The translations under genes and the position numbers were made by a program. The notes under the pieces are model-generated. The model was not told where the DNA came from and ran no database searches. It saw nothing but the letters and a program-made list of their open reading frames with translations. A DNA stretch of 64,000 bases from Hymenobacter glacieicola (lineage in GTDB: Bacteria > Bacteroidota > Bacteroidia > Cytophagales > Hymenobacteraceae). The stretch's first letter is position 1, and the number at the start of each line of letters is the position of its first letter. Where the stretch lies: assembly GCF_014640315.1 (NCBI RefSeq), contig NZ_BMGS01000008.1, positions 124,001 through 188,000 on the forward strand, written 5' to 3'. Below, in pieces: positions 17,176-40,819 of this stretch.

Positions 17176-17277
17176 GGTGTAGAGACGCAATATCTTGCGT
17201 CTCGTCGTTGAACGACCCGTACCACGCGCTATACACAACATCACCAGCGACGAGACTCCAACTATTGCGTCTCTACC
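17176..17277. repeat. right RAYT-flanking palindromic repeat (inverted copy)
   Basis: A 102-bp element starting GGTGTAGAGACGCAATA and ending ATTGCGTCTCTACC. Read in reverse complement it matches about 16508-16605 with only a handful of differences. Its last bases supply the TAG stop codon (17273-17275) of the alpha-2-macroglobulin gene. Confidence 0.92.
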
Positions 17278-20200
17278 GCACGCGCACCACGCCGCTGCCG
17301 GCGCAGCTGTGGTACTCGGCGTTATACATGGCGTCGGCACTGACGGGGCCGAGCTTGAAGGTGCCTTTGCTCACGGCGCGGCAGAGGTAGTAGAACGACT
17401 TAGGCTGGGGCGTAACGGTCGTGAACAGGTTGATCCGGTCGTCGCGCACGTCAAGGTAGTCGGGTTGGGCGGCGTCCTTGGCCCAGGTCAGGTCGCGGAC
17501 GGCCCCAATGCGGGGATTCTCGATTTCCAGGCCGGCGGGCAGCAGATCCGTAATGGCCACGTTCTTGACTTCGCCCGCGCTTTCCGCTGACTGGATGGTG
17601 ATTTTGACAACTACCAGGTCGTTTTGCTTGAAGGAGGTAGAGCCAACCGGGTCGCCGTTGCGGTCCAGAAACTGGCGGCGGACTTGTAGGTAGGCATCTT
17701 CCTCGCGCACCTGGCCGGTGGGCGAAATGCCTTCCGTTTCCCAGAAGTAGTAGAGGCTGCCCTTGCCGCTGGTGCGCAGGGCCAGCTGGCGGTTAGCCAC
17801 GTTGCTTACCGTGAGGTCCTTGCCTGAGAAGCTGCCAATGGCCTTGCCATCGGCCAAGAGGCTAGCCGTGACAGTGCTGCCAGCGTTTTTCTTCGCCAGC
17901 TTGCCGAGAGCTAGCAGCGCAAACGCCCGTTCCTGAGTGTTAAGCCAGCCGGCCTGTTTTACCTGGCGGCTGAGCTGGCGGGCCAGCACGTTCACCTGGG
18001 CGTTGGCGGGGTCGGCGGCGAGCAGGGCGTTGAGCACCAGGGCCTCGTCGCGGAGGGCGGAGGCGAAGGCGTCGCCGAGCTGGCGGCCGGCCAGGGGCGA
18101 GGTGCCGAAGCGGGTGGGCAGGGCTTCGCGGTAGCTGCGCTGGTTGCCCGAGAGGGCGAAGGCGCAGGCCAGCACCCAGCGCGAATCTTCGGGCAGCAGC
18201 TTGCGGTTGGCCTTGTAGTAATTGAGCCCCACGGCATCGGGGCGGCCGGCCAGGGCCAGCACGTAGAGGGAGTAGGCCACTTCCTTCTTGGCCAGCGTCA
18301 CGGGCTGAATTACGCCGCCGGCCTGGATGATGTTGTAGGTGTCGGTTTCGCGCTTGCGCACCTGGGCCTGCAGGTAGCGCAGTACCCTATCGAGCACGTT
18401 TTTGTTCACATCGAAGCCGGCTTGCTGAGCTTCCAGCAGGAAGTGCGCGGCGTAGGCGGTGGCCCACCAGTTGTCGTAGTCGCCGCCGGGCCAGTAGCTG
18501 AGGGAGCCGTTGTACATCTGCTGGGCTTCCACCTTCCGGATGGCTTCCTGCACGTGGTAGTTGGGGTTGTACTTGTTAGAGCTTAGAGCCGAGAGCTTAG
18601 AACTTAGACCGTTCTTCTGGCCTAGCGTGGCGGCCAAATCGCCGTAGTACAGCTGCGGAAAAGCGGCCGACACAGTTTGCTCCAGGCAGCCGTAGGGGTA
18701 TTGCAGCAGGTAGCGCAGGTCCTTGGCAAATTCCGTCATGGGCGAGCGGCTCACCACCAGCTGGCTCCGCAGCGACGAAGGCAGGAAATCGGTTTTCAGG
18801 TTCAGCTGCTGGGCCGCACCGCCCGCCACTACGCCTGCCCCCGTGCGCTTCTGCAACGGCGAAGCAGGACGGATGGGCAACTCGATGGTTTCGGTGAAGG
18901 TTTCTTTGCTAGGAGAGCTGGTTACAATAATTTTAATGCTTCCGGTACCAATGGAAGGCCTCGCCTTTATGCGGAAGGTTACTCGACGTTCCGTATTTGG
19001 TGGAATCGTAGTGCCATAACTAACAGGCTGCAATTTTACGGGAGCTGATCCATCAGACATGAATGGTTCGGCTGATTCAAGCGGGCCAGTAAGTTCGTTT
19101 TTCGCCATCACAATCATCTTCTGATGCGTCGTGTTCGTCAAAGTCACCGGCACGTCAATCGTGTCGCCGGGGCTGAGGAAGCGGGGGAGGCTGGTGCTGA
19201 TGACTACCGGGTCGGCGACGCGCATGGTGTGCTCGGCGGAACCGAAGGCGTCGTTCTTGTAGGCCACGGCCATGATGCGCACGGCTCCGCTGAACTGGGG
19301 CACTTGCAGCTTGTAGCTAGCCCTTCCGCTGGCATCGGCGGTGAGTACGCCGCTCCATTTGGCGAGCAGCTTCACGCGGCGGTTGGGCACGGGCGTGGTG
19401 CGGCGCGAGAGGTCGTAGCCGTCGCCGCCAGTGCTGCTGGTGCCCAGCTCGGGCAGCAGGAAGGGGTACACATCGTAGGCCTGTACTTCCAGGGCGCGCT
19501 TCTGGTAGAAGTAGCCGTAGGGGTCGGGCGTGCGGTAATCCTTCATCTGCAGAATGCCCTCGTCTACCATGGCCAGCGTTACCTGGGCGCCGGGGGCAGT
19601 GGTCACTTCAATGGTCTGGGCGGTCTGGGAGCGGCTTTGGGCGGGCGCTTTAATGGCTACTTGCAGCCTGGCGCCGGGCTTCTCCACCGTCAGCGGCACG
19701 AAGCCCCGGGCCACGGTAAGGGGTAGGCGGTTGTCCCTGATTTCGCGGATGGCAGTGGCCGTCACGTACACGTTGGGCACGTGGCCCGCGCGAATCGGCA
19801 CGTCCACCTTAGCAGATTTCTCGTCGGTGTTCACGTAGAAGTGGTCGAGCACCCGGTTGCGCTCCACGGTCACGAGCACGCGACCGGGGAAGGGCGTTTT
19901 CAGCAGCAGGTGGGCCACGTCGCCGGGCTCATACTTGGGCTTGTCGGCCTCGATGGTCACCTCGCCCTCGTTATTTACCTCGAAGGAGTTGCTTTGAGTG
20001 TCGCCGTAGCCGTAGGCGTACACGCGCTGGGCCACGTAGGTAACGGCCCCTGGCCTGGAAACCCGGATTTCATACTCGCCGGAGTAGGTGGGCGTGAAGC
20101 CCAGGCCGGCATCGGAGCCGCCGCTGGCTACCGTTACGGTGCGGCTCAAGACCACCTGCTCACGCTTTTGCGAGTTGTAGATATAGCGGCCGCCCTGGCG

Positions 20201-22825
20201 CTCAATCACCGTTTCCCAGAGCAGGCGCACCACGCGCACCGTGGCCTGGGCCGAGGTGGGTGTGCCAGCCGGCGTAAGGGCCACCAGCTGCACCGGCAGG
20301 GCCTGGCGGGTTTGCACCAACTCGTCCAAGTTCTTCACCCCAAACAGCACCGGCTGGGTTTGCACCTCGAAGGTGGCTAGTCGGTTTACGGGGCGGCCGG
20401 TTTCGTCGAATACCGTCGTGAAAGCCGCGCCTTCCAGGATGCCTAGGTCACTGTAATCGGGTACCTCATAGGTAGCGGTGCCGCGGCCGGCGGCGTCGGT
20501 CGTGCCTTCGCGTGCGGTCTTCTCGAAGCGGTCTGAAATAGGCGTGGAAACTTGGTCGCCATAGTTACCGCGCTGCTTGTCGCCGCTGTTTATGGCAAAC
20601 GTAAAATCAGGAAATCTTCCGGTAGAGTATACCTTCTCCTTGAGCGAAAACTCCACCTCAAACTTGCGGTCGGCGGCGGGCGGACCGAACAGATTCTGGG
20701 CCGTAATCTGCGCCTCCACCGTCTGGCCGGGCTTCACGACTGGCCTAGAGGCTTTCACGGTCACTTTCATGCGGTCCGGAATGAACTCCTCCACCGAGAG
20801 CTTTCTCGAAGTCAGCAGCACGTCGTTGCCGGTCAGCACTTCCAAGGTGTAAAGACCTGTCATCACGGCCGGGGGCAGCAGGAAGCGCGCCTCAAAGGAG
20901 CCAGCCGCGTTCAGCGTTTTTTGTAGGCTAGCGTACTCCTTGCCGGTGGGCAGCAGCAGCCTGATCTTCACCGGCAGGCCCTTGGGCGGCGCCTGCCAAT
21001 CCTCGGTGCGCAGCACGGTATTGGTCTGGATGGTGTCGCCGGGGCGGTACAGGTCCCGGTCGCCGTAGAGGAAGGCCTGGTAGCGGGCGGCGTTGCTCTG
21101 GAGGCCCCCCACCTCGAAGCGGGAGGTTTCCACGCGGCTGCGGCTCAGGTCGAGGAAGGTGAAGTCGTTGCCCTGCTGGGCCATCACCATGCCCAGCCGG
21201 AAGCGGCCGTTCTGGGCGGTGCTGTCGAATTTTGCTACCCCGTCACCGTTGGTAAGGCCGGTGCCCATCACCTGGTTGTTGGTGCTGATAAAGCGCATTT
21301 CCACCCCGCTCAGGGCCTTGGCGTTGCGGATGGAGTTGGCAAACACCAGCGTGCTGCCGGCCTTGCCCTGCTTCACAATCAGCCCGATATCCGACACGGC
21401 CACCAGCTTGCTCACCTGCAGCCACTGGCGCTCCGTATCCTGCACCTTGATGATGTAGAGACCCTTCAAACCACCCGCAAATTCCAGGTCCTTGAGGTTC
21501 AGATTCAGCAGCCGCAGCCCCTGCGCCTTCGGCAAGCCCGACACAGTGTAGGTACGCTCCGTGAGCACGTTGCCCAGGTTCTCCACGTCGTAGTACTGGT
21601 AGGAGCGGTCCACGTACTCGCCGTTTTCGTCCTGCTCCTCCTCGCCCCCCGAGTCTTCCCTGTCCGAGCCGGGGTAGCCATACTGGGTGCCGCTGCGCAG
21701 AAGCTGCTGAATGTTGTTGGCGTAGACCTTGGCAATGGTCACTTTCACCTGGCCTACCTCATTGATGCGCACGCCCAGGTTGCGGGAGCCCAGCGCATCG
21801 AGGTACATGGCCTTCTCAGCGCTGGCAAAGCTGATGGTGGGCCGCTCATCGGAGAAGCTCACCGTCTGGGTGAAATCCTCGCCCAAATGCCCTCCTAACC
21901 CACCTCGCAGCCCCTGGCGCAAGCTCACCTGGTAGCTCTTGCCCACCTCGAAACCGCCCTTGAGCCGGAAGCCACTTTCCAGTTCCTCCACCTCGTAGGC
22001 CACCTGCGGCGACACCGACAGGGCATTTCGTAAGTCACCCGTGGTTACCGGCTGGTTGGTCAGGATAGTTATAATAGGGTCAGCGGATTGCAGGGTTCCC
22101 GTGATGGAGCGTATCTCCAGCGCCTCCGGGTCGGGAACCTGCACCTGCTTCTCGTAGTCGGAAGTGGTGGCTTGGTCGCTGCCCTGGGCGCGCAGACCCT
22201 GGCCTAGCGCCACCGTCAGCGGACTGCCGGGGCGCACCTGTTGGTTGAGGCTCACGCGCACCACTTGGCCCGGCTCCCCGCTAACGTCAAAAGCCACGGG
22301 CTGCCCATCCTGTGTCACGCGGAGCAACGGCTTCACGTCGGCGGGCTTCACGGGGTAGTTGAAGGGTAGCTCCACGCGCATTTCGGCCGTGCCTGCCGCC
22401 CGCTCCGAGCGGCCCCAGAATGCCTGAGGCTCCTGCAGCTGCAGGTAGGGCGTGTGGAATTTCTGGCGGTTCTCGGGCAGCTCTACGTTGCGTTTGCCCT
22501 CTGGTAATGCCTCTTTGCGTAGCGTGGCCGTAAAGGCGGTGCTAGGCTTAAAGGGCGTGCTGGGCGAGAAAATCAGTTCTCTATCCGATGTCCACTTGAA
22601 TTTGCCGCGCACGGCGGGCTCGAACTTCACCACCTGCACCGTATCCCACCGGTCCTGCTGCTCGGGTGTAGCCACGGCATCAGTGAACTGAAACACTAGG
22701 TTCTGGTAGGGGTCAATCTCTTCGCCATTCGGGTCCGGGCCCGCATCGGAGCCCGACTTAGAGCAGGCACACAGCAAAGCCAGCAGCACCAGCAGCGGCA
22801 GGCGAGAAAAGGTGCGGAAAAACAT
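17273..22825 (-). CDS. alpha-2-macroglobulin family lipoprotein with thioester
   Basis: An 1850-residue bacterial alpha-2-macroglobulin, a periplasmic protease trap. The lipobox (LVLLALLCAC) places acylated Cys near residue 21. The protein contains serial macroglobulin beta domains, an A2M_N segment with YRPGDTIQTNTVLRTEDW (residues about 585-600), and a bait-like region. The thioester motif is PYGCLEQT with Cys1380, followed by the alpha/alpha toroid and a receptor-binding-like C-terminal domain. The intact CLEQ indicates covalent trapping of proteases that cleave the bait. In many bacteria this gene is next to pbpC, suggesting joint envelope defence and repair; here the pair is separated. 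The stop codon lies inside the RAYT repeat. A stretch at about 18890-19115 is distinctly AT-richer than its flanks, and 18575-18615 encodes a short repeat-like LSSKLSALSSNK. Confidence 0.95.
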   Translation of the reverse strand: MFFRTFSRLPLLVLLALLCACSKSGSDAGPDPNGEEIDPYQNLVFQFTDAVATPEQQDRWDTVQVVKFEPAVRGKFKWTSDRELIFSPSTPFKPSTAFTATLRKEALPEGKRNVELPENRQKFHTPYLQLQEPQAFWGRSERAAGTAEMRVELPFNYPVKPADVKPLLRVTQDGQPVAFDVSGEPGQVVRVSLNQQVRPGSPLTVALGQGLRAQGSDQATTSDYEKQVQVPDPEALEIRSITGTLQSADPIITILTNQPVTTGDLRNALSVSPQVAYEVEELESGFRLKGGFEVGKSYQVSLRQGLRGGLGGHLGEDFTQTVSFSDERPTISFASAEKAMYLDALGSRNLGVRINEVGQVKVTIAKVYANNIQQLLRSGTQYGYPGSDREDSGGEEEQDENGEYVDRSYQYYDVENLGNVLTERTYTVSGLPKAQGLRLLNLNLKDLEFAGGLKGLYIIKVQDTERQWLQVSKLVAVSDIGLIVKQGKAGSTLVFANSIRNAKALSGVEMRFISTNNQVMGTGLTNGDGVAKFDSTAQNGRFRLGMVMAQQGNDFTFLDLSRSRVETSRFEVGGLQSNAARYQAFLYGDRDLYRPGDTIQTNTVLRTEDWQAPPKGLPVKIRLLLPTGKEYASLQKTLNAAGSFEARFLLPPAVMTGLYTLEVLTGNDVLLTSRKLSVEEFIPDRMKVTVKASRPVVKPGQTVEAQITAQNLFGPPAADRKFEVEFSLKEKVYSTGRFPDFTFAINSGDKQRGNYGDQVSTPISDRFEKTAREGTTDAAGRGTATYEVPDYSDLGILEGAAFTTVFDETGRPVNRLATFEVQTQPVLFGVKNLDELVQTRQALPVQLVALTPAGTPTSAQATVRVVRLLWETVIERQGGRYIYNSQKREQVVLSRTVTVASGGSDAGLGFTPTYSGEYEIRVSRPGAVTYVAQRVYAYGYGDTQSNSFEVNNEGEVTIEADKPKYEPGDVAHLLLKTPFPGRVLVTVERNRVLDHFYVNTDEKSAKVDVPIRAGHVPNVYVTATAIREIRDNRLPLTVARGFVPLTVEKPGARLQVAIKAPAQSRSQTAQTIEVTTAPGAQVTLAMVDEGILQMKDYRTPDPYGYFYQKRALEVQAYDVYPFLLPELGTSSTGGDGYDLSRRTTPVPNRRVKLLAKWSGVLTADASGRASYKLQVPQFSGAVRIMAVAYKNDAFGSAEHTMRVADPVVISTSLPRFLSPGDTIDVPVTLTNTTHQKMIVMAKNELTGPLESAEPFMSDGSAPVKLQPVSYGTTIPPNTERRVTFRIKARPSIGTGSIKIIVTSSPSKETFTETIELPIRPASPLQKRTGAGVVAGGAAQQLNLKTDFLPSSLRSQLVVSRSPMTEFAKDLRYLLQYPYGCLEQTVSAAFPQLYYGDLAATLGQKNGLSSKLSALSSNKYNPNYHVQEAIRKVEAQQMYNGSLSYWPGGDYDNWWATAYAAHFLLEAQQAGFDVNKNVLDRVLRYLQAQVRKRETDTYNIIQAGGVIQPVTLAKKEVAYSLYVLALAGRPDAVGLNYYKANRKLLPEDSRWVLACAFALSGNQRSYREALPTRFGTSPLAGRQLGDAFASALRDEALVLNALLAADPANAQVNVLARQLSRQVKQAGWLNTQERAFALLALGKLAKKNAGSTVTASLLADGKAIGSFSGKDLTVSNVANRQLALRTSGKGSLYYFWETEGISPTGQVREEDAYLQVRRQFLDRNGDPVGSTSFKQNDLVVVKITIQSAESAGEVKNVAITDLLPAGLEIENPRIGAVRDLTWAKDAAQPDYLDVRDDRINLFTTVTPQPKSFYYLCRAVSKGTFKLGPVSADAMYNAEYHSCAGSGVVRVR

Positions 22826-26914: not shown

Positions 26915-29900
26915 CTAGCTCAGCGAGTCCGCCACATTTTCTTCGGAGGCGGTGGGTTCCGGCTCCTCATCGGGCGGAAGCGTTGCGAAGCGGCTTTTAA
27001 AGCGCGCATACAAGGCGTTCATGCCCAATAGCAGCACCCCCATCAGGATGAAAACAATGGCGCGGGTGATGGTGCCGTGCTGCTTTAAATCGACCAGTAG
27101 CAGGCGGGCGAAGCACAGGGCCGTGCCGGCCAAGGCTACGTAGCGCAAGTCCTGGCGCCGGAGCAGTAGGCTGCTGATAAAGGCGGCCACTACCTCCAGC
27201 ATCAGCAATACGGTCAGCACCGACCGGTCGAAGGATTGCAGCAGCAGCAGCGTCAGCACCCCAAAGGACGGATACAGCAGCAGCGGAATGAGCACCCGGG
27301 CTGGTAGCCGGCCCAGGGCGGCCAGCGGGGCCAGCAGCCGCGGCCAGGTAGCGGCTTGGTTGCTGGGAAAATGCTGCAGAGCTACCGCCGAGTACGCAAA
27401 CAGCCCGAGGGTGGTAGCCATGGTCGTGAGGCCGGCCAGGGTGAGCAGTTGCCCTTCCTCCAGGCGCGTGAGGGCCACGTAACTGCCCGCCACCACGGCC
27501 GCCCCGAAAAACAGCAGGCCGTACACGCGCAGGCGCCGCAGGCGTAGCGGCAGGTAGCGGCCCGCCAGCGTCAGGGTAAAGGCCGTCGTAATCCAGAGCA
27601 GGGAATGCCATTCCAGCTGCACCTCATACCACACCGTGAAACTGCCGAACAGCAGCACTGCCTCCGCCAGGAGCGGATGCAGGTAGCGCCAGGAAGTGTA
27701 CACCGGAGCCGTAGCGGGCGGGCGGAGGGCAGCCCAGCCGGCTAGCACCAGCAGCAGAGTCCCCGCCGTGAATCGGCGGGCCGGGATGCCCGCCAGCAGG
27801 TCGGCGGAATGCGTTGCCAGCAGCGTGAAGTGCCCCAGCAAAGCCAGGGAAAGCAGCCCGTAAGAGAGGTGAAGCAGAAACCGGTCGGGTGAGCCGGCCC
27901 GGGCAAGGGCGGCGGCGCTGGCAAACCGGCCTCGCACTACCTGCGCCGCTATAGCCAGCCCGGCGGCCAGCAGCGTCCAGGCCAGAATGGGTAATGCCTC
28001 GGTGCGTGGGGCCAGCGCCGCCCAGGCGGCTACCAGCAGCTGAGCGCCGCCCAAATACAGCCAGGGCCAGCGTACGTGCTGTTGCCGGCCTTCCCACCAG
28101 GAGCAGAACAGGCCCGCTACGGGCAAGGCCAGCAAGGGTAGCAAGTAACCAACTATGTGCCCGGGGCGGAACGCAACGCCCGCCGGTAGCACCTGGCTCC
28201 ACTGCAGCACCTGGTACCCAACTGCGGCCACTACCAGCCCCAGCCACAGGCCCGGAACCTTCAGAATCCGCCGCGCCAGCAGCAGAGCGCCGCCTAGTCC
28301 GGCCGCCAGCCACCCAGCCCAGGTATGCTCAACTACCAGTCCACCCGCGGCCAGCAGCTGCCCACCCACCAGCAGGCTCAGCAGGCGCAACCGGTAGATG
28401 GCAACGTAGGAGAGGGGTAGGACGTCGTGGGCCGGAACCTGGCGCCAGCCCAGCAACAGCTGGGTTCCGAGGGTAGCCAGGGCCGCTCCTACTAGCAAGG
28501 CCGCGCGTAACGAACCGGGTAGGTTGCCGGTGTGGTACACGAATACGGGCAAAGTGGCGCCCAGCAGAAGGGCCAGGTACACCAGCCCCCGGTACAGTAC
28601 CGCTTCGGACCGCCACGCCAGCCACAAGGTAAACGCCAGCACTTCCGCGTACAGCAGCGTGCTAACCGCGGGCCATGCTACGCCCGCCTCGTGCAGCCCA
28701 AGAACGGCCACCATCAGCAGCAATTGGCTGAGCAGAAGATGGGCCGACCGGAACCAACCAGCTTTAAGCAGCCACGTTGCCAGGCTACCCAGCATGGCGG
28801 CCGCGCCCACTGTGCCAGCAAGTAGCAGGGCCACGGGTGGTTGCGCCAGCCCGAACAGAGCATGCGTTACGAGCCCGGCCCCCGCCAGGTACACCAGCAC
28901 CGTAAACAGCTGCAAAGCAGTATGTAGCCCCTGCAAGGAAGCGGTAGCCAGCAGCGCGGTGAGGCGGGCCAGCCGCGCCGGCAGGCTAAGCAGTGCGCTA
29001 CTCACTACCCCCAGCAGCAAGAGCAGCAGTAGCCGCTCGTGCAACTCAGGGGCCGGCAGCAGGCGAAACGCGTGGGTAGTGGCAAGCAGAAACCAGCCTC
29101 CTCCAGCCAAGGAAGCTGCGGCTAGCACCCGGTAAAGCAGCAGTCCCCCAATCCAGCCCAGCGCCCCGGCCAGTAGCAGGGTTTCCAGGTAGAGCAGCGC
29201 CGTGGTAGCCGGCCAGCCCAAACCGGCCTTGTGCAACCCAACAATAGCCACCGTAAGGAAGGCCTGCCCGCCAAGGAAGTGCAGGCTGCGGAACCAGCCG
29301 GGAGAGCGGCGCAGCCACCAGGCCACTCCAAACAGGGCCCCCGCGGCCGCCAGGGTCCCGCTCAGCAGGGTCGCTACCGGCGGATGAGGAACCCCAAACA
29401 AGGCCCGCAGCAGCAGCAGGGCCGCTCCCGCGTACAAACCGCCTACCATACCGCCAAAGCCCCGGTGCAATTCCCGGCCGCTGAAGTTGCCCTGCTCATC
29501 GGGGCGGAACTGTTGCCCCACCAGATAGAAATAGCCGGCCCCCAGCAAGCCGGAAAGCAACAGCAAGAAAGCGTTGCGGTGCAGCTCAACGGGCGAATAT
29601 GCCGTGATTTGGCTGATGTTAAGGACCAAAAGGGCCCCCGCCGCCACCAAGGCACCAGCCATAGCTACCTGCGACACAATTCTTTCCTGCTCCCGGGTCA
29701 TGATAAAGGCCACGAGCAGGGTTTCCAGCAGCATAAAGAGCAGAATCAGGCTGCCCGAGGCATGCCAGCCCTGTAGGGAGAAGGCCGCAAACAGCGCCAG
29801 TGTCAGGGAAATAATACTGTCGGTGCGGAAAAGCCACGGAATGCCCAGCTGCCGGGCCCGGCGAGCCACCCCAAACGTCAGCAGGGCACCCAGCCCCAGG

Positions 29901-31348
29901 GGCACGGTCTTCCAGGGTGAGCCGGTGCTGTACTGGTACAGATTAATACCCAGGAAAGTCCAGTTCAGCACGTGGGCCGAAAACAGCAGCCCATCGAACT
30001 GAGCCGTGGCGTACACCTTGCGGTACTGCACCACGGCAGCCGCTACCCCGGCCAGCAGCACCAAGGCCATGGCGCTCAGTCGCAGATTGCTGCTCAGCGG
30101 GCCAGTGGCCGCCAGGGAATAGTGCCAGTACTGGTGGAAAACAAAAAAGCTGAGGATGCTCAGCAGCAACTGATACTTCCAGTGCTGCCGGTAGGTAATG
30201 CCAATACTGAACGCGGTAACGCCTGCCGCGGCCGCCAGGGGTAGCAACGTGGGCGGCAGCACCGCCAGCGCCACCAAGCTCAGTACTCCGTGCAGGGTAG
30301 CCACCGATTCGCGGCTGGCGTCCCAGGCCAGCCACAGGTTGGCCGCAACCCCGGCCAGCAACAGCAGGTAGCCTAGCGGCGGTTCGGCCCACTGCAAGCC
30401 CGGTACGCTCACGGACCCCACACAGGCAAACAGAAACACGGCCGCCGCGCTGCTTTGCAACCACACGTGCAGGCGGGCCGCAAAGGGCTTCGGCCGTAGG
30501 TAGTAATGCAACCCCAGCAGCAGGGCCGCAAAGCCCGTAATCATGCCGAAACGAAGCGGCGCACTAACCCGCAAAGCGGTATAAATTCCCAGGAAGCCTA
30601 TGCCCGTCACGAGCACTACGGCCCCCAGAATACCGGTCCAGTTGTCCAGAATCACTTGTTCGGCCCGGTCCCACCAGGTAGGGCCGCTGGGCTCCGTTTC
30701 CCGGGGCAAAGCGGGCCGCTGCCGGGGAGGAGCCGGCGGATTGGTCGGCGCCGACTTCGGCTGATCAGATGAGGTAAGGGGGGCTGTCGGCGCAGAAGTG
30801 ACCGGTGCAGAAGCGGCCCGTTCGGAAGGTAGATTAGCCGGCTGAGAAAAGGTAGCTGGGGAAGCCGGTGCGGCCGGTGCAGGTATCACTGGGGCGGCTA
30901 CGGGCGGTGATGCTGGCGTTGGGGCGGCAGCCGGCGCCGCCACGGGCGGTAGAATGGGAGCTAGCGGGGGTGCCGCTGGTTCAGGCATGGTTGATGAAAC
31001 TGCCGGTGTTGGTTCTGGGGTAGCGGCCGGCGCTGGGGCCGAGGGCGGTAGGGCCGAGGCAGCCGGCGTAGCGGCCGGAGTTGAAGCACGGTACCACTCC
31101 AGCGGTCTAGGAGGTGCGGCCGGTGCTGGCGGGGCCACTGGTGGTGTAGCGGCCGCCTCGGCTGCGGGCGGCGACGCAGGGCGGGGCTGCTGCAACGCTT
31201 GCCGCAGTTGCTCCACCGTGGCCTGAAGCACTTGGTGCTCGTCCTCGCGCTGCTGCAGGCGTTGGCTAAGCTCCCGCACGCGCTTGGTAAGATTCTGGTA
31301 CAGCATGGCTACCACCACGATGACCAGCATCAACAGGGATGTACCCAT
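26915..31348 (-). CDS. DUF2339 giant polytopic membrane protein
   Basis: A 1477-residue protein of the DUF2339 family. Residues 1-20 form a membrane anchor (MGTSLLMLVIVVVAMLY). Residues about 20-55 form a Gln/Glu/Arg coiled coil (LTKRVRELSQRLQQREDEHQVL). Residues about 60-215 are a low-complexity Ala/Pro/Ser linker. From WWDRAEQVILDNWTGILGAVVLVTGIGFLGIYTALR onwards almost everything is hydrophobic, with roughly forty predicted membrane helices, some in recognisable internal repeats (GVPHPPVATLLSGTLAAAGALFG versus GLAQPPVALLLAGTVGAAAMLG). The C-terminus is acidic (PPDEEPEPTASEENVADS). The family is widespread and its function is not established; envelope assembly or transport has been suggested by architecture only. 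It is a single gene with its own terminator, divergent from the LysR gene. Confidence 0.9.
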   Translation of the reverse strand: MGTSLLMLVIVVVAMLYQNLTKRVRELSQRLQQREDEHQVLQATVEQLRQALQQPRPASPPAAEAAATPPVAPPAPAAPPRPLEWYRASTPAATPAASALPPSAPAPAATPEPTPAVSSTMPEPAAPPLAPILPPVAAPAAAPTPASPPVAAPVIPAPAAPASPATFSQPANLPSERAASAPVTSAPTAPLTSSDQPKSAPTNPPAPPRQRPALPRETEPSGPTWWDRAEQVILDNWTGILGAVVLVTGIGFLGIYTALRVSAPLRFGMITGFAALLLGLHYYLRPKPFAARLHVWLQSSAAAVFLFACVGSVSVPGLQWAEPPLGYLLLLAGVAANLWLAWDASRESVATLHGVLSLVALAVLPPTLLPLAAAAGVTAFSIGITYRQHWKYQLLLSILSFFVFHQYWHYSLAATGPLSSNLRLSAMALVLLAGVAAAVVQYRKVYATAQFDGLLFSAHVLNWTFLGINLYQYSTGSPWKTVPLGLGALLTFGVARRARQLGIPWLFRTDSIISLTLALFAAFSLQGWHASGSLILLFMLLETLLVAFIMTREQERIVSQVAMAGALVAAGALLVLNISQITAYSPVELHRNAFLLLLSGLLGAGYFYLVGQQFRPDEQGNFSGRELHRGFGGMVGGLYAGAALLLLRALFGVPHPPVATLLSGTLAAAGALFGVAWWLRRSPGWFRSLHFLGGQAFLTVAIVGLHKAGLGWPATTALLYLETLLLAGALGWIGGLLLYRVLAAASLAGGGWFLLATTHAFRLLPAPELHERLLLLLLLGVVSSALLSLPARLARLTALLATASLQGLHTALQLFTVLVYLAGAGLVTHALFGLAQPPVALLLAGTVGAAAMLGSLATWLLKAGWFRSAHLLLSQLLLMVAVLGLHEAGVAWPAVSTLLYAEVLAFTLWLAWRSEAVLYRGLVYLALLLGATLPVFVYHTGNLPGSLRAALLVGAALATLGTQLLLGWRQVPAHDVLPLSYVAIYRLRLLSLLVGGQLLAAGGLVVEHTWAGWLAAGLGGALLLARRILKVPGLWLGLVVAAVGYQVLQWSQVLPAGVAFRPGHIVGYLLPLLALPVAGLFCSWWEGRQQHVRWPWLYLGGAQLLVAAWAALAPRTEALPILAWTLLAAGLAIAAQVVRGRFASAAALARAGSPDRFLLHLSYGLLSLALLGHFTLLATHSADLLAGIPARRFTAGTLLLVLAGWAALRPPATAPVYTSWRYLHPLLAEAVLLFGSFTVWYEVQLEWHSLLWITTAFTLTLAGRYLPLRLRRLRVYGLLFFGAAVVAGSYVALTRLEEGQLLTLAGLTTMATTLGLFAYSAVALQHFPSNQAATWPRLLAPLAALGRLPARVLIPLLLYPSFGVLTLLLLQSFDRSVLTVLLMLEVVAAFISSLLLRRQDLRYVALAGTALCFARLLLVDLKQHGTITRAIVFILMGVLLLGMNALYARFKSRFATLPPDEEPEPTASEENVADSLS

Positions 31349-34415: not shown

Positions 34416-35798
34416 ATGACTTCGAAAGTCGCTCCTTTCCATCCGGGCTTCAGCCTGTTCACGCTGGGTGTCCTGCTACTGCTGGCCCTGGTTGCTGCCT
34501 TCGTGGAGGTGCCACACCCCGCCGCTACCCCCGGCTCGCTCAACGGCGCCGACGTGGCCTGGATGCTTACGGCCACGGCCTTCGTGCTGATTATGACGCC
34601 GGGTCTGTCGTTCTTCTACGGGGGCATGGTGCGACCCAAAAACGTTATCAGCACCATGCTCCAGAGCTTTGTGGCCCTGGGCGTTATATCGGTGCTGTTT
34701 TACTTTGTGGGGTTCTCGCTCTGCTACGGCGACTCCTGGCACGGGCTGATTGGTAACCCGTTCACGTTTGCCCTGCTCCGCAACGTGGGCACGGCGCCCA
34801 ATCCGGCCTTCGCCGCCACCATTCCATTTATCCTCTACTTCGCCTTTCAGCTCAAGTTTGCCATTATCACCCCGGCCCTGATTACCGGCTCCTTTGCCGA
34901 ACGGGTCCGCTTTAAGGGGTATCTGGCGTTTATGGTGCTGTTCAGCTTGTTTATTTACTGCCCCCTGGCCCACTGGACCTGGCACCCCGAGGGGTTCCTG
35001 CGCCAGTGGGGCGTGCTTGATTTTGCGGGCGGTACGGTAGTGCACATTTCGGCGGGCGTGGCGGCCTTGGCCGGGGCCATGGTGCTGGGGCGCCGCTCGG
35101 CCAACCTGCGCACGTCCTCGTTTTCCACCCCCAACGTACCCTACGTGCTACTGGGTACGGGCCTGCTGTGGTTTGGCTGGTTTGGCTTTAACGCGGGTTC
35201 CGCCCTGGGCGCCAACGAGCTGGCAGCCCTGTCTTTTGTGAATACCAATCTGGCCTCGGCTGCCGCCCTTATTGCCTGGGTGCTGATTGAGGTAGCCCGC
35301 GGTGGCAAGCCCACGGCCGTGGGCGCCTGCACCGGGGCTGTGGTGGGGCTGGTGGCCATAACTCCGGCTGCTGGCTACATCGGGTACGGGCAGAGTATCC
35401 TGTTTGGGGTGCTGGCCGCCCTCATCAGCCACGCCGCCGTGCACTGGCAAAACTCCCGCACTACCATCGACGATACCCTCGACGTGTTTCCCTGCCACGG
35501 CCTGGGGGGCATTGTAGGCATGCTCCTGACGGGTGTGTTTGCCGATAAAGTGGGGCTGATTCACGGCACCTTTACCACCTTCGGCTACCACTTGCTGGGG
35601 CTGCTGATTGTCATTACCTATTCCTTCGTGGGCGCCTGGATTCTACTGAAAATCACGGACCGAATCTTTGGCTTGCGCGTAAAAATTCAGGAGGAAGAGT
35701 TGGGGCTTGATTTAAGTCAGCACGAGGAATCAACCTACCACATCGACGAGGAATTTGAGCGCACGTACCGGCGGGAGCTGACCCCGGAAAATGCGTAA
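34416..35798 (+). CDS. amtB: ammonium transporter
   Basis: A 460-residue Amt/Mep/Rh family channel for ammonium uptake in the inner membrane. The N-terminal hydrophobic segment (FSLFTLGVLLLLALVAAFVE) precedes the standard core with eleven expected helices. Landmarks: LNGADVAWMLTATAFVLIMTPGLSFFYGGMVRPKNV, the family opening; FALLRN; ITGSFAERVRFK; LAHWTWHPEGFL; DFAGGTVVHISAG (first pore His); WFGFNAGSALG; and FPCHGLGGIVGM (second pore His). The acidic cytoplasmic tail (EEELGLDLSQHEEST) is the expected PII contact region. No glnK/glnB gene is adjacent, unlike the usual arrangement. A 640-base AT-rich, palindrome-bearing leader suggests complex upstream control. Confidence 0.96.
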   Translation: MTSKVAPFHPGFSLFTLGVLLLLALVAAFVEVPHPAATPGSLNGADVAWMLTATAFVLIMTPGLSFFYGGMVRPKNVISTMLQSFVALGVISVLFYFVGFSLCYGDSWHGLIGNPFTFALLRNVGTAPNPAFAATIPFILYFAFQLKFAIITPALITGSFAERVRFKGYLAFMVLFSLFIYCPLAHWTWHPEGFLRQWGVLDFAGGTVVHISAGVAALAGAMVLGRRSANLRTSSFSTPNVPYVLLGTGLLWFGWFGFNAGSALGANELAALSFVNTNLASAAALIAWVLIEVARGGKPTAVGACTGAVVGLVAITPAAGYIGYGQSILFGVLAALISHAAVHWQNSRTTIDDTLDVFPCHGLGGIVGMLLTGVFADKVGLIHGTFTTFGYHLLGLLIVITYSFVGAWILLKITDRIFGLRVKIQEEELGLDLSQHEESTYHIDEEFERTYRRELTPENA

Positions 35799-35953: not shown

Positions 35954-37162
35954 TTACAGCAGGGCCGTAGACCAGAGGTAGGCCAGCCAGGTAATAAATA
36001 GCGCGCCCACAATTCCCTTTTGCAGATTCTCTTCTGGTAAGAATAGGCTGGTACCTAACCCCACTATGCCCAGCCCTACCAGCACCACGGTGGCTGCCAC
36101 GGCCCAGCCGCGGGCTTTGCGGGTGCTATAGGGTCGTAGGGCTACCGTAATCGGGAACAGAGCCGCCAGCAAACTGCCGCCCAGCAGGCCTACCCCCGCC
36201 AGGCCGGCGAAAGTTGCCGTGGTCAGGAGCAGGGTAGCCGCCAGCAGTACGCCCGCAAAGGCCAGGGCCTGCCGCCGCTGGGCTTCTGAAAGGGCGTGCC
36301 GGCCGTAAGGGTTCAGCAGCAGCAAGCCATTAAACATAGGGTCGGAAAACCAGCTCATAAATACCAGCGGCAGGTAAATGGGGAGTAGCACCGGCACAAA
36401 CCGCACCAGCACGTACAGCCCGATAAAAAGCAGGCGCCGCGTAACCCCGCCCAGCTTTTCCGTCCAGACGGTGAAGCGCAGGAAGGCGCGGTACAGCCAG
36501 TACTGGGCCTTCAATGATTCCACCAGGCCTTCGCGGGCGTAGTTGGAGGTAGGTTGCCGGCGCAGGGCGTCGCGGAAGTGGTGCAGGGCCTGTTCATGCC
36601 GGCCCGCTTCCAGGGCTACCCAGCCGGCGTCGGCGTGGGTGCCGGCATCGTCGGGGTCGTGGCGCAGGGCCGTTTCCAGCGAGTCGGCCGCATCCTGGGC
36701 CCGGCCGAGACGGGCCAGGCAGCGCCCCCGCAGCCCCAGGCAGTCGACGTGTTCGGGGTCGTAGGCCAAACCCATTTCGGCGGCCCGCAGCGCCCCTTCC
36801 CACTGCCCCCGCTGAAACCGAATCAGCCCCAGGGTGTGGTGGTAGTTGGGGTCGGTCGGGTCCAAGGCCAGGGCTTGCTCAATGGCCGTCAGGGCTTCGG
36901 GCAGGCGCTGCTGGCGCTGGTGGGCCAAACTCAGCAGGTAGTAAGCAAAGTCAAATTCCGGGGCTAGGCCAATGGCCGTTTCAATGTGGGTCTGGCCTTC
37001 CGGCAGCCGCCCCAGATCCAGCAGGGCCATGCCCAGCCAGGCGTGGGCCAGGGCATCATTAGGCTCCTGCCGCAGAATGCGGCGCAGTTCCTGCTCGGCC
37101 TGCGCTGCCCGGCCCTGGCGCAGTAGCAGTAAAATCCGGTCGGGCCAGTTGGCTTGTTCCAT
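35954..37162 (-). CDS. TPR protein with C-terminal membrane domain (third gene of AAA/TPR operon)
   Basis: A 402-residue protein. Residues 1-205 contain about five tetratricopeptide repeats (NDALAHAWLGMALLDLGRLPEG, PNYHHTLGLIRFQRGQWEGALRA, PDDAGTHADAGWVALEAGRHEQA). The segment SNYAREGLVESLKAQYWLYRAFLRF links to a membrane region of about five helices: LLFIGLYVLVRFVPVLLPIYLPLVF, QALAFAGVLLAATLLLTTATFAGLA, GLLGGSLLAALFPITVAL, WAVAATVVLVGLGIVGLG and GIVGALFITWLAYLW. Its start is 14 bases from the stop of the preceding TPR gene, so the two are co-transcribed. The architecture (soluble TPR scaffold, C-terminal membrane domain) is shared with that neighbour. Its role is unknown; it probably recruits the operon's AAA ATPase to a membrane. 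Confidence 0.85.
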   Translation of the reverse strand: MEQANWPDRILLLLRQGRAAQAEQELRRILRQEPNDALAHAWLGMALLDLGRLPEGQTHIETAIGLAPEFDFAYYLLSLAHQRQQRLPEALTAIEQALALDPTDPNYHHTLGLIRFQRGQWEGALRAAEMGLAYDPEHVDCLGLRGRCLARLGRAQDAADSLETALRHDPDDAGTHADAGWVALEAGRHEQALHHFRDALRRQPTSNYAREGLVESLKAQYWLYRAFLRFTVWTEKLGGVTRRLLFIGLYVLVRFVPVLLPIYLPLVFMSWFSDPMFNGLLLLNPYGRHALSEAQRRQALAFAGVLLAATLLLTTATFAGLAGVGLLGGSLLAALFPITVALRPYSTRKARGWAVAATVVLVGLGIVGLGTSLFLPEENLQKGIVGALFITWLAYLWSTALL

Positions 37163-37176
37163 GTGGCGTGAGGTCG

Positions 37177-38505
37177 TTAAGAAGGCGAAGCCGGGGCGGG
37201 CTGGTGGACGGGGCGAAAGACGTGATACACTAGCAGCAAGCCAGCAAAGATCATCAGAAAGCCAGCCGCTTCGTTTGCCCCGTCAGGGTTAAGCCAGTTG
37301 CCGTGCCCATTAACCAGCGCCATACTGCCTGGACTCAGGAGCAGGGTAGGCCCTAAAGGCCATTTTCGAGTTCCTTGCCGCCACTTCCGGTAACTGTTGC
37401 GTAACGCAAACCCCAGGCCGCCGGCAACTGCAACCCACAAAGCCGGCAACGGAATGGGCGGAAACTGCGCAAGCCCAAGCGTGGCGGCGGCCCACAGGAG
37501 GCCCGCGTAAAACCAGCCATCTTCCAGCAGAGGCACCGGACCAACAACGGCATAACGCACCTGAAAGGCGGTGCGGGCCGCCAAGGCTACAAGCAACGGA
37601 AGAGCTAGCAAAAGAGGCCAGGCCAAACGCTTCAGCAAAGGAACGTTCGTGTCCGCTGAGGAGGTAGCCCGCCAGCACCGCTGCCAGGCAAAAGGCCGTT
37701 GCGACCAATGTTGAAACAGCCCGGCTTCCCAGAGCCGGCGGGTGGCTTCTGGCTGGTTAGGTTCCAGAAGCAGTATGTCCTGGTAAAGTGCAACGGCCCG
37801 CGGCAGATCCTGCCGGTTGAACGCCGATTCGGCCTGCCATTCCAGTACTTCCTGCAACGACTTGCGCGACTGTTCAGCGCCAGGCCGTAACCGCAGGGCC
37901 TCTCTGAAATGTACTTCTGCTGCCGAGAGCTGGTGATTACGCAGTGCCTCTTCGCCCTGTAGCTGATGCGCTACCGGGTGGTTAGGGTGCCAGTACGCCA
38001 GCAGTCGGATTGTGTTGGCCGCCTCGCGCGGCCGGCCCAGTTGGCGCAGAGCGGTAACGCGCTGAAACTGACACTCCAGATGACCGGGGTTGATGGCCAG
38101 CCCGGCAGCCGTGGCTTGCAGAGCTTCCTGCGAGTGACGACGGGCGTTATGAATTACGGCCTGGTAGCCGAAAAAGGTAGCATTGCGCGGGTCAAGCCGT
38201 AGCGCCTCTTCAATTGCCTGCATCGCGGCAAACAGCTGAGAGTCCCGCAGCAGGGCAACGCTATGAAAGTAATGGGCTCTGGCCTGCTGCGGATCCAGCA
38301 CTAAAGCCTCCCGAATGGCCGACAGTCCTTCCGCAGTGCGCCCGCTTTGGTTGAGCAGGGTGAGGGCCAATAATTGATGAGCCGCCGCTTCCTTGGGGTT
38401 GGTAGCCAGCCGCCGCCGCACCAGCTGCTCGGCCTGCTCCGGCCGCTGTACGTCCAGCAGGTGGTGTACCGCTTCCTGCCACCGGGTATGCTCGGCGTGG
38501 TTCAT
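37177..38505 (-). CDS. TPR protein with C-terminal membrane helices (second gene of AAA/TPR operon)
   Basis: A 442-residue protein. The ATG at 38505 (MNHAEHTRWQEAVHHLL) is preferred; the longer open frame upstream lies within the AAA gene. Residues 1-265 hold TPR units (EAAAHQLLALTLLNQSGRTAEGL, ARAHYFHSVALLRDSQLFAAMQA, ATFFGYQAVIHNARRHSQEAL, AEVHFREALRLRPGAEQSRKSL, VALYQDILLLEPNQPEAT). Membrane segments follow near 300 (LAWPLLLALPLLVALAA), 335 (WFYAGLLWAAATLGL), 360 (LPALWVAVAGGLGFAL) and 420 (AGFLMIFAGLLLVYHVF). It lies 17 bases from the end of the AAA gene. It appears to be a diverged paralogue of the third gene. Unrecognised beyond its domains. Confidence 0.85.
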   Translation of the reverse strand: MNHAEHTRWQEAVHHLLDVQRPEQAEQLVRRRLATNPKEAAAHQLLALTLLNQSGRTAEGLSAIREALVLDPQQARAHYFHSVALLRDSQLFAAMQAIEEALRLDPRNATFFGYQAVIHNARRHSQEALQATAAGLAINPGHLECQFQRVTALRQLGRPREAANTIRLLAYWHPNHPVAHQLQGEEALRNHQLSAAEVHFREALRLRPGAEQSRKSLQEVLEWQAESAFNRQDLPRAVALYQDILLLEPNQPEATRRLWEAGLFQHWSQRPFAWQRCWRATSSADTNVPLLKRLAWPLLLALPLLVALAARTAFQVRYAVVGPVPLLEDGWFYAGLLWAAATLGLAQFPPIPLPALWVAVAGGLGFALRNSYRKWRQGTRKWPLGPTLLLSPGSMALVNGHGNWLNPDGANEAAGFLMIFAGLLLVYHVFRPVHQPAPASPS

Positions 38506-38522
38506 GCTGCGGGTGGTTACAG

Positions 38523-39926
38523 CTACGCCGAGGGCTTTTTGATGCCCAAGTACACCAGAATATCGTCGTAGATGCCGCCCTCGTTGGAGTACAGCGCATA
38601 GTTTTTGGCCGTGGCAAACCATTCGCGGGTGCTGGGCTTCACCTTGCCGGTCGCCTCGGCCAGGGTGCGTTGCTCCAGGGGCAGGGGCTTGCCAGCCTTC
38701 ATCGATTCGCGCAGGCAGGCTTCAATGGCAACGTCCACCACGGCCTGCAAGTCGGCCCCGGAGAAGCCTGCGGTTTGCGCGGCCAGCTTGCGCAAATTCA
38801 CGGAAGAGGCTACCGGTTTGCCCTGGAGTAGTACGTTCAGCACGGCTTCCCGGGCCGCCTCATCGGGGGGCGTCACCAGCAGAATCCGGTCGAAGCGGCC
38901 GGGACGGCGGAAGGCGGAATCGAGGTGCCAGGGGGCATTAGTGGCGGCCAGAATCAGCACGCCCTCGTTGGAGCGGGTAGCCCCGTCCAGCTCCGAGAGA
39001 AACTGGTTGATGACGGTGCGGCCCGCGCTCTGGCGCAGGTCGTGGCGGTTGGCGGCCAAGGCGTCCACTTCGTCGAAGAACAGCACGCACGGGGCCTGCA
39101 GGCGGGCTTGCTCGAACAGCTGGTGCAAATTCCGCTCACTGTTGCCCAGCCACATATCCAGAATGTCGTTGATGCCGACGTGAATAAAGCTGGCCTGCAC
39201 CTCGCCGGCCGTAGCTCGCGCCAGGTAGGTTTTGCCGCAGCCGGGCGGGCCGTAGAGCAGCATACCGCCCCCGGCCGCCTTGCCGTAAGCTTTGTACAGA
39301 TCGGGGAATTGCAGCGGATGAATGATTTTCAGCCGGATTTCCTCCTTAATGCTTTCCATGCCGCCCACGTCGGCAAAGGTAATTTTGGGCCGCTCCAGGC
39401 CGCTGAACAGGGTGTGCTCAATGCCGCTGAAGTCGTCGTCATCGTCGGGGGTAGGGCTGCCCGGACCGCTTGGAAAAGGAGTGGGCGAGCCGCCGTGGGC
39501 CGGCTGAGCCGTTTGGCCGCCGCGAAGGCGGCGGGCTAGCTCAGCGTCTTCCAGAGTAGGATTGTAGGTAAGGGCCGTGGAATAGGCTTCGCGGGCGGCA
39601 GGCAGCTGGTCGGCGGCCAGCAGCAGGCGGGCGTGGAGCAGGTGGGCGCGGGCGTGCTCGGGGTGGGTGCCCAGCAGCTCCTCTACCACCACAAAGGCGG
39701 CCGACGATTTGCCCAGCTCGGCGTACGTTTCGGCCAGGCCCAGCTGCAGCTCAGCATCGTCGGGGGCTTGGCGCAGACCAGTGCGGTACAGTTCTTCGGC
39801 TTCGGCAAAGCGTCCGGCCTGGGTGAGCAGGCCAGCCACGTGCTTGCGCAGGGCAAGGTTATCGGGCGAAAAGGATAAGGCTTCCAGTAGCGGTTCAATA
39901 GCAGACGAGTTGGGCGTAGCGGGCAT
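38523..39926 (-). CDS. TPR-AAA ATPase (first gene of AAA/TPR operon)
   Basis: A 467-residue ATPase. ATG at 39926 (MPATPNSSAIEPLLEAL). Residues 10-140 form TPR repeats (LALRKHVAGLLTQAGRFAEAEELY, DDAELQLGLAETYAELGKSSAAF). Residues 145-180 form a Pro/Gly/Asp linker. Residues 190-430 form a classic AAA module of the Cdc48/Vps4/FtsH clade: FADVGGMESIKEEIR; Walker A GPPGCGKT (Lys232); the pore loop area ILDMWLGNSERN; Walker B VLFFDEVDAL; the second region of homology with ATNAPWHLDSAFRRPGRFDR (two arginine fingers); and the sensor 2 helix AGFSGADLQAVVDVAIEA. No protease domain follows, so remodelling or disassembly of protein complexes is likely. It is the first gene of a compact operon with two membrane TPR proteins. 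Confidence 0.92.
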   Translation of the reverse strand: MPATPNSSAIEPLLEALSFSPDNLALRKHVAGLLTQAGRFAEAEELYRTGLRQAPDDAELQLGLAETYAELGKSSAAFVVVEELLGTHPEHARAHLLHARLLLAADQLPAAREAYSTALTYNPTLEDAELARRLRGGQTAQPAHGGSPTPFPSGPGSPTPDDDDDFSGIEHTLFSGLERPKITFADVGGMESIKEEIRLKIIHPLQFPDLYKAYGKAAGGGMLLYGPPGCGKTYLARATAGEVQASFIHVGINDILDMWLGNSERNLHQLFEQARLQAPCVLFFDEVDALAANRHDLRQSAGRTVINQFLSELDGATRSNEGVLILAATNAPWHLDSAFRRPGRFDRILLVTPPDEAAREAVLNVLLQGKPVASSVNLRKLAAQTAGFSGADLQAVVDVAIEACLRESMKAGKPLPLEQRTLAEATGKVKPSTREWFATAKNYALYSNEGGIYDDILVYLGIKKPSA

Positions 39927-40018: not shown

Positions 40019-40819
40019 CTACCCGCCTATTTTGCTGAGAACAAACGATACCAAAAAGCCAACTACGGTAATGAGACCCGTGAAATTGTGGGCCACCTCA
40101 AACGCCTCCGGAATCATGGTGTCGGCAATCATGGCCAGCACCGCCCCCGCCGCTATGGCCGTGGTGGCGGCCACTACCTCCGCCGAAAAGCCGCTAAACA
40201 AGGAGTAGCCAGCCAAGGACGCCAGCCCCGATATCAGGGCAATGCCCGCCCAGAGGCTCAGCACGTAAGTGGGCGTGCGGCCGGCCTTGCGCATGCCGGC
40301 GGCGCTGCTCAGGCCCTCGGGCAGGTTGCTCATGAAAATGGCCACCACCGCCGCCACACTCACGCCGCCGCCCGCCAGCATACTCAGCCCAATAACAATG
40401 CTTTCCGGGATGCCATCCAGCAGGGCCCCAATGGCCAGGGCCATGCCGTTGTCGTCGCCGGCGGTGCTGGCTTCTTTCTGGCCCTGTTGCACGGCGGTGC
40501 GCTCCTGACTTTGGTGCTTACCGGAGCGTTTGCGGTGCTTGGCCCCGTGGCGGGCCAGCAGCCAGTTGGCCAGCGTGTACACGGCCGCCCCGCCCACAAA
40601 CCCAATGGCCGTGGAATCGAAGCCGCCTTTTTCGTAAGCCTCCTCCATTAGCTCGAAGGAAAGAGTAGAAATCAGGACGCCGCTGCCAAAGGCCATAACG
40701 GCGGCAATCAGCCGTTGCGGAACGTGGCTGAAGTAGCCTACGGCGGCGCCCAGCAGCAAGGCCGAGCCCGACACCAGCCCCCAGAAACCGGCCACGGCCC
40801 AGGTAGGAAAATCTATCAT
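40019..40819 (-). CDS. ZIP family metal transporter
   Basis: A 266-residue ZIP (ZRT/IRT-like) divalent metal permease with about eight helices. The binuclear metal site is in helices 4 and 5: GALLDGIPESIVIG and AIFMSNLPEGLSSA, bearing the Asp/Glu and Asn/Glu ligands in place of the commoner HN.PEG. The loop before helix 4 (about 95-125) is His/Lys/Gln-rich (RHGAKHRKRSGKHQSQ), a typical cytoplasmic metal-sensing loop. The C-terminus includes AGAVLAMIADTMIPEAFE, another conserved site. Zinc, iron or manganese are possible substrates and sequence alone cannot choose. It stands alone between the AAA/TPR operon and a DUF167 gene, both on the same strand. Confidence 0.88.
   Translation of the reverse strand: MIDFPTWAVAGFWGLVSGSALLLGAAVGYFSHVPQRLIAAVMAFGSGVLISTLSFELMEEAYEKGGFDSTAIGFVGGAAVYTLANWLLARHGAKHRKRSGKHQSQERTAVQQGQKEASTAGDDNGMALAIGALLDGIPESIVIGLSMLAGGGVSVAAVVAIFMSNLPEGLSSAAGMRKAGRTPTYVLSLWAGIALISGLASLAGYSLFSGFSAEVVAATTAIAAGAVLAMIADTMIPEAFEVAHNFTGLITVVGFLVSFVLSKIGG

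Follow-up and report, generated by a model that had tools for sequence, protein, structure and literature searches.

A conserved gene pair of a TPR-AAA ATPase and a TPR-membrane protein in Hymenobacter glacieicola and other bacteria

A stretch of 64,000 nucleotides from Hymenobacter glacieicola (contig NZ_BMGS01000008.1, positions 124,001 to 188,000; hereafter the window) contains a compact minus-strand operon for an AAA ATPase with tetratricopeptide repeats (TPR) and for two TPR proteins with membrane helices. The question raised by this locus is whether the three genes form one conserved system, as was proposed in an earlier note made from the sequence alone, and what such a system might do. 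The three open reading frames (ORFs), all with ATG starts, agree with the arrangement described in that note, the gaps being 17 bases between the ATPase gene and the middle gene and 14 bases between the middle and the third gene. The middle-gene frame is open up to 38622, and the start chosen was the one adjoining the stop of the ATPase gene. Pfam assigned AAA (137.5 bits), AAA_lid_3 and TPR to the first gene product and TPR to the other two; 6TM stands below for six transmembrane helices.

38523..39926, minus strand: TPR-AAA ATPase gene, 467 amino acids (ORF and Pfam; model with a predicted local distance difference test score, pLDDT, of 85.9)
37177..38505, minus strand: second TPR-membrane protein, 442 amino acids, divergent paralog of a Hymenobacter-only group (ORF, Pfam, partner tree and hhalign)
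35954..37162, minus strand: TPR-6TM partner, 402 amino acids, ortholog of the partner found across phyla (ortholog loci, tree, model with pLDDT 95.6)

To judge from homology and gene order, the conserved unit is the pair of the ATPase and the third gene, not the trio. The candidate system of the earlier note therefore stands as an ATPase/TPR-membrane pair conserved well beyond the Cytophagales, and falls as a unit of three genes. As far as the searches reach, the pair is a real, deeply conserved and uncharacterised module, to which one sentence had previously been devoted.

Occurrence of the pair in other genomes

Relatives of the ATPase were taken from a scan of genome contigs as the best 80 of 450 loci, 22 of them from Hymenobacter and 58 from other organisms. 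The closest match, from Hymenobacter sp. HSC-4F20, was 87% identical, and the orthologs outside the genus, 52-60% identical over nearly the full length, belong, judged by their record titles, to Bacteroidota, Cyanobacteria, Planctomycetota, Verrucomicrobiota, Chloroflexi and Calditrichia. At 74 of the 80 loci the initial scan showed a homolog of the third gene among the next four ORFs, and a downstream partner was also found at L083 and at L074 (there cut by the contig end), which brought the count to 76. The presence of the partner gene beside ATPases of this divergence in six phyla excludes chance. When the partner was the first ORF, it overlapped the ATPase gene by one base in 17 loci and by four bases in 11, counts that are approximate because partner start codons were picked by nearness to the preceding stop. 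Among the other four loci, L085 has a contig that stops just past the ATPase; the membrane domain is encoded elsewhere in the L085 and L099 genomes and, with a weak match (70.5 bits), in that of L095; the last, L058, is considered below. A contig titled as a Klebsiella pneumoniae metagenome-assembled genome (L069) was also seen to carry a TPR-AAA ATPase 58% identical to that of the window; this assembly is probably mis-binned or mislabelled.

In the partner tree, the third gene of the window clusters with 21 other Hymenobacter genes (100/99), and the middle gene falls in a separate, Hymenobacter-only group with long branches (98/97 within 99/96). Since the third gene is the conserved partner and the middle gene belongs to this paralog group, the trio was rejected as the conserved unit, and the middle gene is, as the tree places it, a fast-evolving extra copy. 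Hymenobacter loci hold one to four TPR-membrane genes in tandem, and second copies outside the genus were seen at L042, L045 and L089. Among 757 ORFs within 6 kb, obtained by simple calling that may miss or invent genes, no third gene family was common to the loci across phyla beyond generic ones; of the 21 loci in the single neighbour cluster that spans four taxon groups, 14 are from Hymenobacter.

The co-occurrence of the two genes was then followed through 756 genomes of four phyla, each genome being counted under the phylum of its centre genome and the centre genomes being included. The ATPase was searched for with profile A2 (E <=1e-110), and the partner with profile A3 of its membrane half by itself (E <=1e-6), so that the TPR repeats were unable to cause a match. 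These searches score just the best first-look candidates, and weak second copies may escape them.

Bacteroidota: ATPase in 7 of 296 genomes, membrane domain in 7, the identical seven genomes
Planctomycetota: ATPase in 29 of 149, membrane domain in 22, all 22 inside the 29
Cyanobacteria: ATPase in 13 of 117, membrane domain in 8, all 8 inside the 13
Verrucomicrobiota: ATPase in 14 of 194, membrane domain in 14, the identical fourteen genomes

In total the ATPase was found in 63 of the 756 genomes and the membrane domain in 51, and in no genome did the membrane domain occur without the ATPase (Fisher's test for Bacteroidota, Planctomycetota and Cyanobacteria, relatedness ignored, 8e-48). The two genes are neighbours in 49 of the 51 genomes, the paralog standing between them in the window; the other two, G268 and G581, keep both genes on one contig at a distance of over 3 Mb, with no second partner copy near the ATPase. 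The earlier note had named common isolation of the AAA gene from TPR genes as the pattern that would speak against its proposal; a TPR or TPR-membrane gene adjoins the ATPase gene in 61 of the 63 genomes, and the remaining two hold the partner elsewhere.

The 12 genomes with the ATPase and no A3 match all have a same-strand TPR gene directly beside the ATPase gene (62-167 bits with profile A1, of the whole partner), with predicted membrane helices on the C-terminal side in 11 and a cut by the contig end in the twelfth. TPR genes being common, this evidence is weaker than that from A3. Five of these cases are small cyanobacterial genomes (1.9-2.1 Mb; L165-L169) that encode a short ATPase (296-345 amino acids as called) lacking the TPR arm and, 1-4 bases downstream, a TPR partner of 262-293 amino acids, one of them cut by the contig end. 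Docking must consequently work without the arm, which makes the TPR-TPR contact suggested in the earlier note doubtful as a general docking mode. The seven planctomycetes without an A3 match have a low-scoring ATPase (380-497 bits) and an upstream partner, an order also found in G407 and G450. The planctomycete loci with an upstream TPR-membrane gene are L158-L164, L170 and L171, and L158 holds several TPR-membrane frames in tandem.

The ATPase is also encoded in three actinobacterial records, of which two are plasmids and the third is filed as one; in each, the next gene encodes a TPR protein for which three to four membrane helices are predicted. On the plasmids of Streptomyces and Actinomyces (L107:4653-6994 and L108:4473-6940), the two genes overlap by four bases and are annotated merely as an ATP-binding/AAA protein and a TPR protein; the Streptomyces partner is beyond the reach of profile A3. 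One of the 268 matching records in the plasmid collection covers 80% of the query. The third record, L106 (NZ_LT559118.1) from Nonomuraea, is filed as a plasmid of 11.85 Mb and looks like a mislabelled chromosome. The isolated gene pair thus occurs in at least seven phyla (six from the best 80 of 450 loci, and Actinomycetota). The TPR arm of the ATPase, the complete six-helix domain and the order of the genes all vary more than the presence of a TPR-membrane neighbour.

The two proteins and their surroundings

In the predicted structure of the ATPase, an N-terminal TPR arm is joined by a low-confidence linker (residues 138-173) to a single AAA module of the classical type, and the C-terminal tail is helical. 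Conservation was assessed in alignment A2, composed of the window sequence and 60 of the 80 loci (7 were dropped for coordinates running past a stop codon, and 13, mostly near-identical, were left out).

39522..39908, minus strand: N-terminal TPR arm, residues 7-135 (Pfam and model; missing in five cyanobacterial homologs)
39228..39251, minus strand: Walker A GPPGCGKT, residues 226-233 (G226-T233 invariant in the 61-row alignment A2)
39057..39086, minus strand: Walker B VLFFDEVDAL, residues 281-290 (D285 and E286 invariant in A2)
38886..38912, minus strand: arginine-finger region FRRPGRFDR, residues 339-347 (R341 and R344 invariant, R347 at least 90% conserved in A2)
38547..38633, minus strand: C-terminal helices after the lid, residues 432-460, family signature (A2 conservation)

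The three motifs cited in the earlier note were located at residues 226, 281 and 339, and its statement that a protease and a second AAA domain are absent was borne out, one AAA domain being present and HExxH missing from all three operon proteins as well as from the 80 ortholog ATPases. Among these 80, the Walker A pattern was matched by 80, Walker B by 77 and RPGR[FL]D[RQ] by 76. The invariant tail residues in A2 are E435, W436, F437, A440, N442, A444, N448, G451, Y453 and D454. No membrane segment was detected in the window ATPase by hydropathy.

The top sequence match of the ATPase is p97 D2 (206-208 bits for that domain), which also leads the structure matches of the model (Z 28.9, 3.2 A, 281 residues), followed by the Vps4 proteins of yeast (26.7) and Metallosphaera (26.6). 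In a 50-row AAA tree (unrooted, bootstrap not settled, archaeal CdvC not included), the family members form a single clade (100/99) with a long stem, separate both from the side of yeast Vps4, spastin and Msp1 and from that of Cdc48 D1/D2, PAN and FtsH. On this tree the ATPase is a clade of its own among the Vps4, Msp1, spastin, Cdc48, PAN and FtsH sequences tested; the earlier placement in the Cdc48/Vps4 clade is right in a broad sense and did not hold at this finer level. The signature is mixed, with TN.PW.LD as in yeast Vps4 and RPGRFDR as in PAN.

The partner was modelled (pLDDT 95.6) from the 65-row alignment A1, in which the window sequence is joined by 64 of the 72 usable partner sequences; alignment A3 of the membrane half comprises the window sequence and 43 others. 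Loci L135-L137 and L186-L190 did not enter the analysis. In the model seven TPR hairpins lead directly into six long C-terminal helices.

36449..37156, minus strand: TPR superhelix of the partner, seven helix pairs, residues 3-238 (model secondary structure)
35960..36448, minus strand: membrane domain of the partner, residues 239-401, six helices (model and conservation)

The 4-5 membrane helices previously given need correction to six for the third protein, on its model; in the middle protein a hydropathy cut showed three. The paralogy of the two, also claimed earlier, was confirmed; their membrane halves are related as well, with an hhalign probability of 99.2% (E 2.7e-19). For the membrane halves of 44 partners, the best Pfam match had an E value of 0.0027 and the best NCBIfam match 0.022, so that no fitting model was obtained. 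The partner model as a whole was compared with known structures by Foldseek and a second aligner, and the matches listed (50 each) were to TPR proteins.

Lys/Arg exceed Asp/Glu directly before helix 1 of the membrane domain (2.5 vs 0.1) and in the loop between helices 2 and 3 (2.9 vs 1.6), and few basic residues occur in the turns between helices 3 and 4 and helices 5 and 6. The basic residues at the first two sites suggest that the TPR domain faces the cytoplasm. On the concave TPR face, the relative entropy for repeats 1-7, calculated from 50 non-Hymenobacter rows, is 1.6, 1.5, 2.1, 1.6, 2.3, 2.9 and 3.1, so that conservation rises towards the membrane; the scaffold positions (2.8, 3.0, 2.7, 2.5, 2.8, 3.4 and 2.7) show no comparable trend. 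Residues W271, P275, L281, G287 and L291, located where helix 2 ends and in the next loop, are 88-98% conserved.

The operon of the window occupies the gap between an ammonium transporter gene (34416-35798, plus strand) and a ZIP-like transporter gene (40019-40819, minus strand; Pfam match under its cut-off), and the genes around it encode a transporter, a DNA-repair protein and the like. By the cut used, the ZIP-like gene was found in 13 of 26 Hymenobacter genomes, 8 of which lack the operon; in all eight, DUF167, the ZIP-like gene and the ammonium transporter gene are consecutive. The presence or absence of the operon between the same neighbours indicates that it was gained or lost as a unit. 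In G002, G003 and G006, which bear the operon, the ZIP-like gene adjoins the ammonium transporter gene and the operon is found beyond the latter, hence the site itself has been rearranged. Elsewhere in the window, the minus strand encodes a large protein of unknown family (26915-31348; 1477 amino acids, no Pfam match at E 1e-6) and a bacterial alpha-2-macroglobulin of 1850 amino acids (17273-22825; bait region, MG2, bMG3, bMG5, bMG6 and bMG10).

Proposed function and competing explanations

TPR membrane proteins often serve assembly, and bacteria handle bad membrane proteins mainly via FtsH, which degrades them. The pairing described here is well supported, and from the sequences we infer a function for it. 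The classical AAA motifs are intact, no protease motif is present and a TPR-membrane protein is co-inherited; a two-gene, membrane-docked protein-unfolding machine is therefore proposed, with a probability of about 0.5. The TPR-6TM protein would be the membrane receptor, facing the cytoplasm and recruiting both clients and the ATPase hexamer, and the membrane-proximal TPR groove together with the conserved loops may hold the client, the hexamer or both. The hexamer would thread a client segment through its pore, resulting in the extraction of membrane proteins or the dismantling of complexes at the inner membrane, and the released clients would refold or be degraded by other factors. In Hymenobacter, the duplicated TPR-6TM proteins may broaden the client range.

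A more specific version, which we regard as tentative and rather doubtful, is that the pair represents a widespread bacterial means of membrane-protein extraction, in which a six-helix protein selects clients by its TPR groove and passes them to a dedicated AAA unfoldase, a single ring without protease whose lineage is distinct from Vps4, Cdc48 and FtsH. Mechanistically this would resemble Msp1, or Cdc48 with its receptors at the endoplasmic reticulum. If true, it would give bacteria another means, beside FtsH, of dealing with membrane proteins, and a parallel to the work of Msp1 and Cdc48 at eukaryotic membranes.

Several observations weigh against the proposal of an unfolding machine. The genome of L058 gave no membrane-domain match at all, and in three Verrucomicrobiota (G673, G794 and G797) an additional ATPase copy of low score (448-455 bits) has no TPR-membrane gene closer than about 4 kb. 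The distribution is patchy, as in the 7 of 296 Bacteroidota, which implies that the pair is dispensable or conditional. The turn between helices 1 and 2 of the partner is also somewhat basic (1.54 vs 0.72), a misfit with a simple three-hairpin topology. Moreover, an assembly chaperone would leave identical traces, extraction, disassembly and assembly being inseparable by sequence.

The latter alternative, in which the ATPase remodels or inserts the subunits of one envelope complex on a TPR-6TM assembly platform, is in keeping with the general role of TPR membrane proteins and with a pair that travels without a protease; however, no envelope complex recurs beside the pair across phyla (neighbour Pfam families, best 25 of 115), and we consider it improbable. 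Rather unlikely, too, is a disassembly ATPase of the Vps4 kind, for which the partner would replace ESCRT-III as membrane-bound adaptor or substrate and which would recycle either the partner or a PspA-type membrane polymer. The TN.PW.LD stretch before the arginine fingers and Vps4 structures that match nearly as well as p97 argue for it, and it is close to the reading in section 18 of PMC11237479, where the ATPase is called VPS4-like beside a TPR-6TM gene. Yet in the tree the ATPase stands apart from yeast Vps4, spastin and Msp1, its arginine-finger stretch RPGRFDR is that of PAN, and no third family stands beside the pair across phyla, PspA and ESCRT-III not having been searched for elsewhere in the genomes.

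An anti-phage or other conflict module was considered because the pair is patchy, sometimes plasmid-borne and has a distantly IetA-like ATPase. The PADLOC IetA match of 124.3 bits, the plasmid copies in Streptomyces and Actinomyces and the presence or absence at one syntenic site in Hymenobacter are consistent with it. This explanation is nevertheless very improbable, as the NCBIfam IteA model scores 122.5 bits, below its cut-off of 510, the partner genes encode TPR-membrane proteins and no protease, the window neighbours are of the transporter and DNA-repair kind, and no PADLOC model matches more than 2 of the 84 neighbour proteins scanned (108 listed).

The pair had been mentioned once: in one sentence of its section 18, Ravi et al. 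(2024; PMC11237479) describe a bacterial VPS4-like AAA and TPR/6TM pair, with ACB74714.1 as example, and take the ATPase as a Vps4 transfer from archaea, neither naming the pair nor reporting a test of it in that section. The pair of the window very probably belongs to the same family; the archaeal transfer is neither shown nor excluded by our tree. Searches of the open-access literature gave no other account, name or experiment for the pair, and it is not mentioned in passages of PMC10936438, PMC9950537 and PMC11357015. The impression in the earlier note that this was no named system is supported by these searches, this mention notwithstanding. What is added here is the breadth of the pair, the near-perfect co-occurrence of the membrane domain, the reduced versions, the separate position of the ATPase among the classical AAA proteins tested, and the recasting of the trio as a pair with a lineage-specific duplicate. 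Small, apparently active to judge from its motifs and present in culturable, engineerable groups (Hymenobacter, Nostocales, Streptomyces), the pair could be tested directly.

Comparison with known AAA systems

No NCBIfam model reached its cut-off for the ATPase among the 25 matches listed. Cdc48 was rejected (TIGR01243, 223.9 bits, cut-off 802.65; one AAA domain instead of two in tandem), as were FtsH (TIGR01241, 214.6 bits, cut-off 600; HExxH and an own membrane helix both lacking), CdvC (NF041006, 177.6 bits, cut-off 650) and IetA of IetAS (NF042959, 122.5 bits, cut-off 510; TPR-membrane partners in place of a protease). A MIT domain was not found N-terminally, residues 7-135 being TPR among the best 25 of 34 Pfam matches.

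With Cdc48/p97, the ATPase shares the D2 domain as its best match in both sequence and structure, but here a TPR arm replaces the N domain and the AAA domain is single. With FtsH it shares a related AAA domain, 41% identical over the AAA part to the FtsH-like match of its own genome. Msp1 bears its own membrane anchor. In the present pair the anchor would be a separate protein, the TPR-6TM partner; the window ATPase showed no N-terminal membrane helix by hydropathy and belongs to a separate clade. The likeness to Msp1/ATAD1 (PMC7018516) is one of analogy and would lie in a single classical AAA ring that works at the membrane without a protease.

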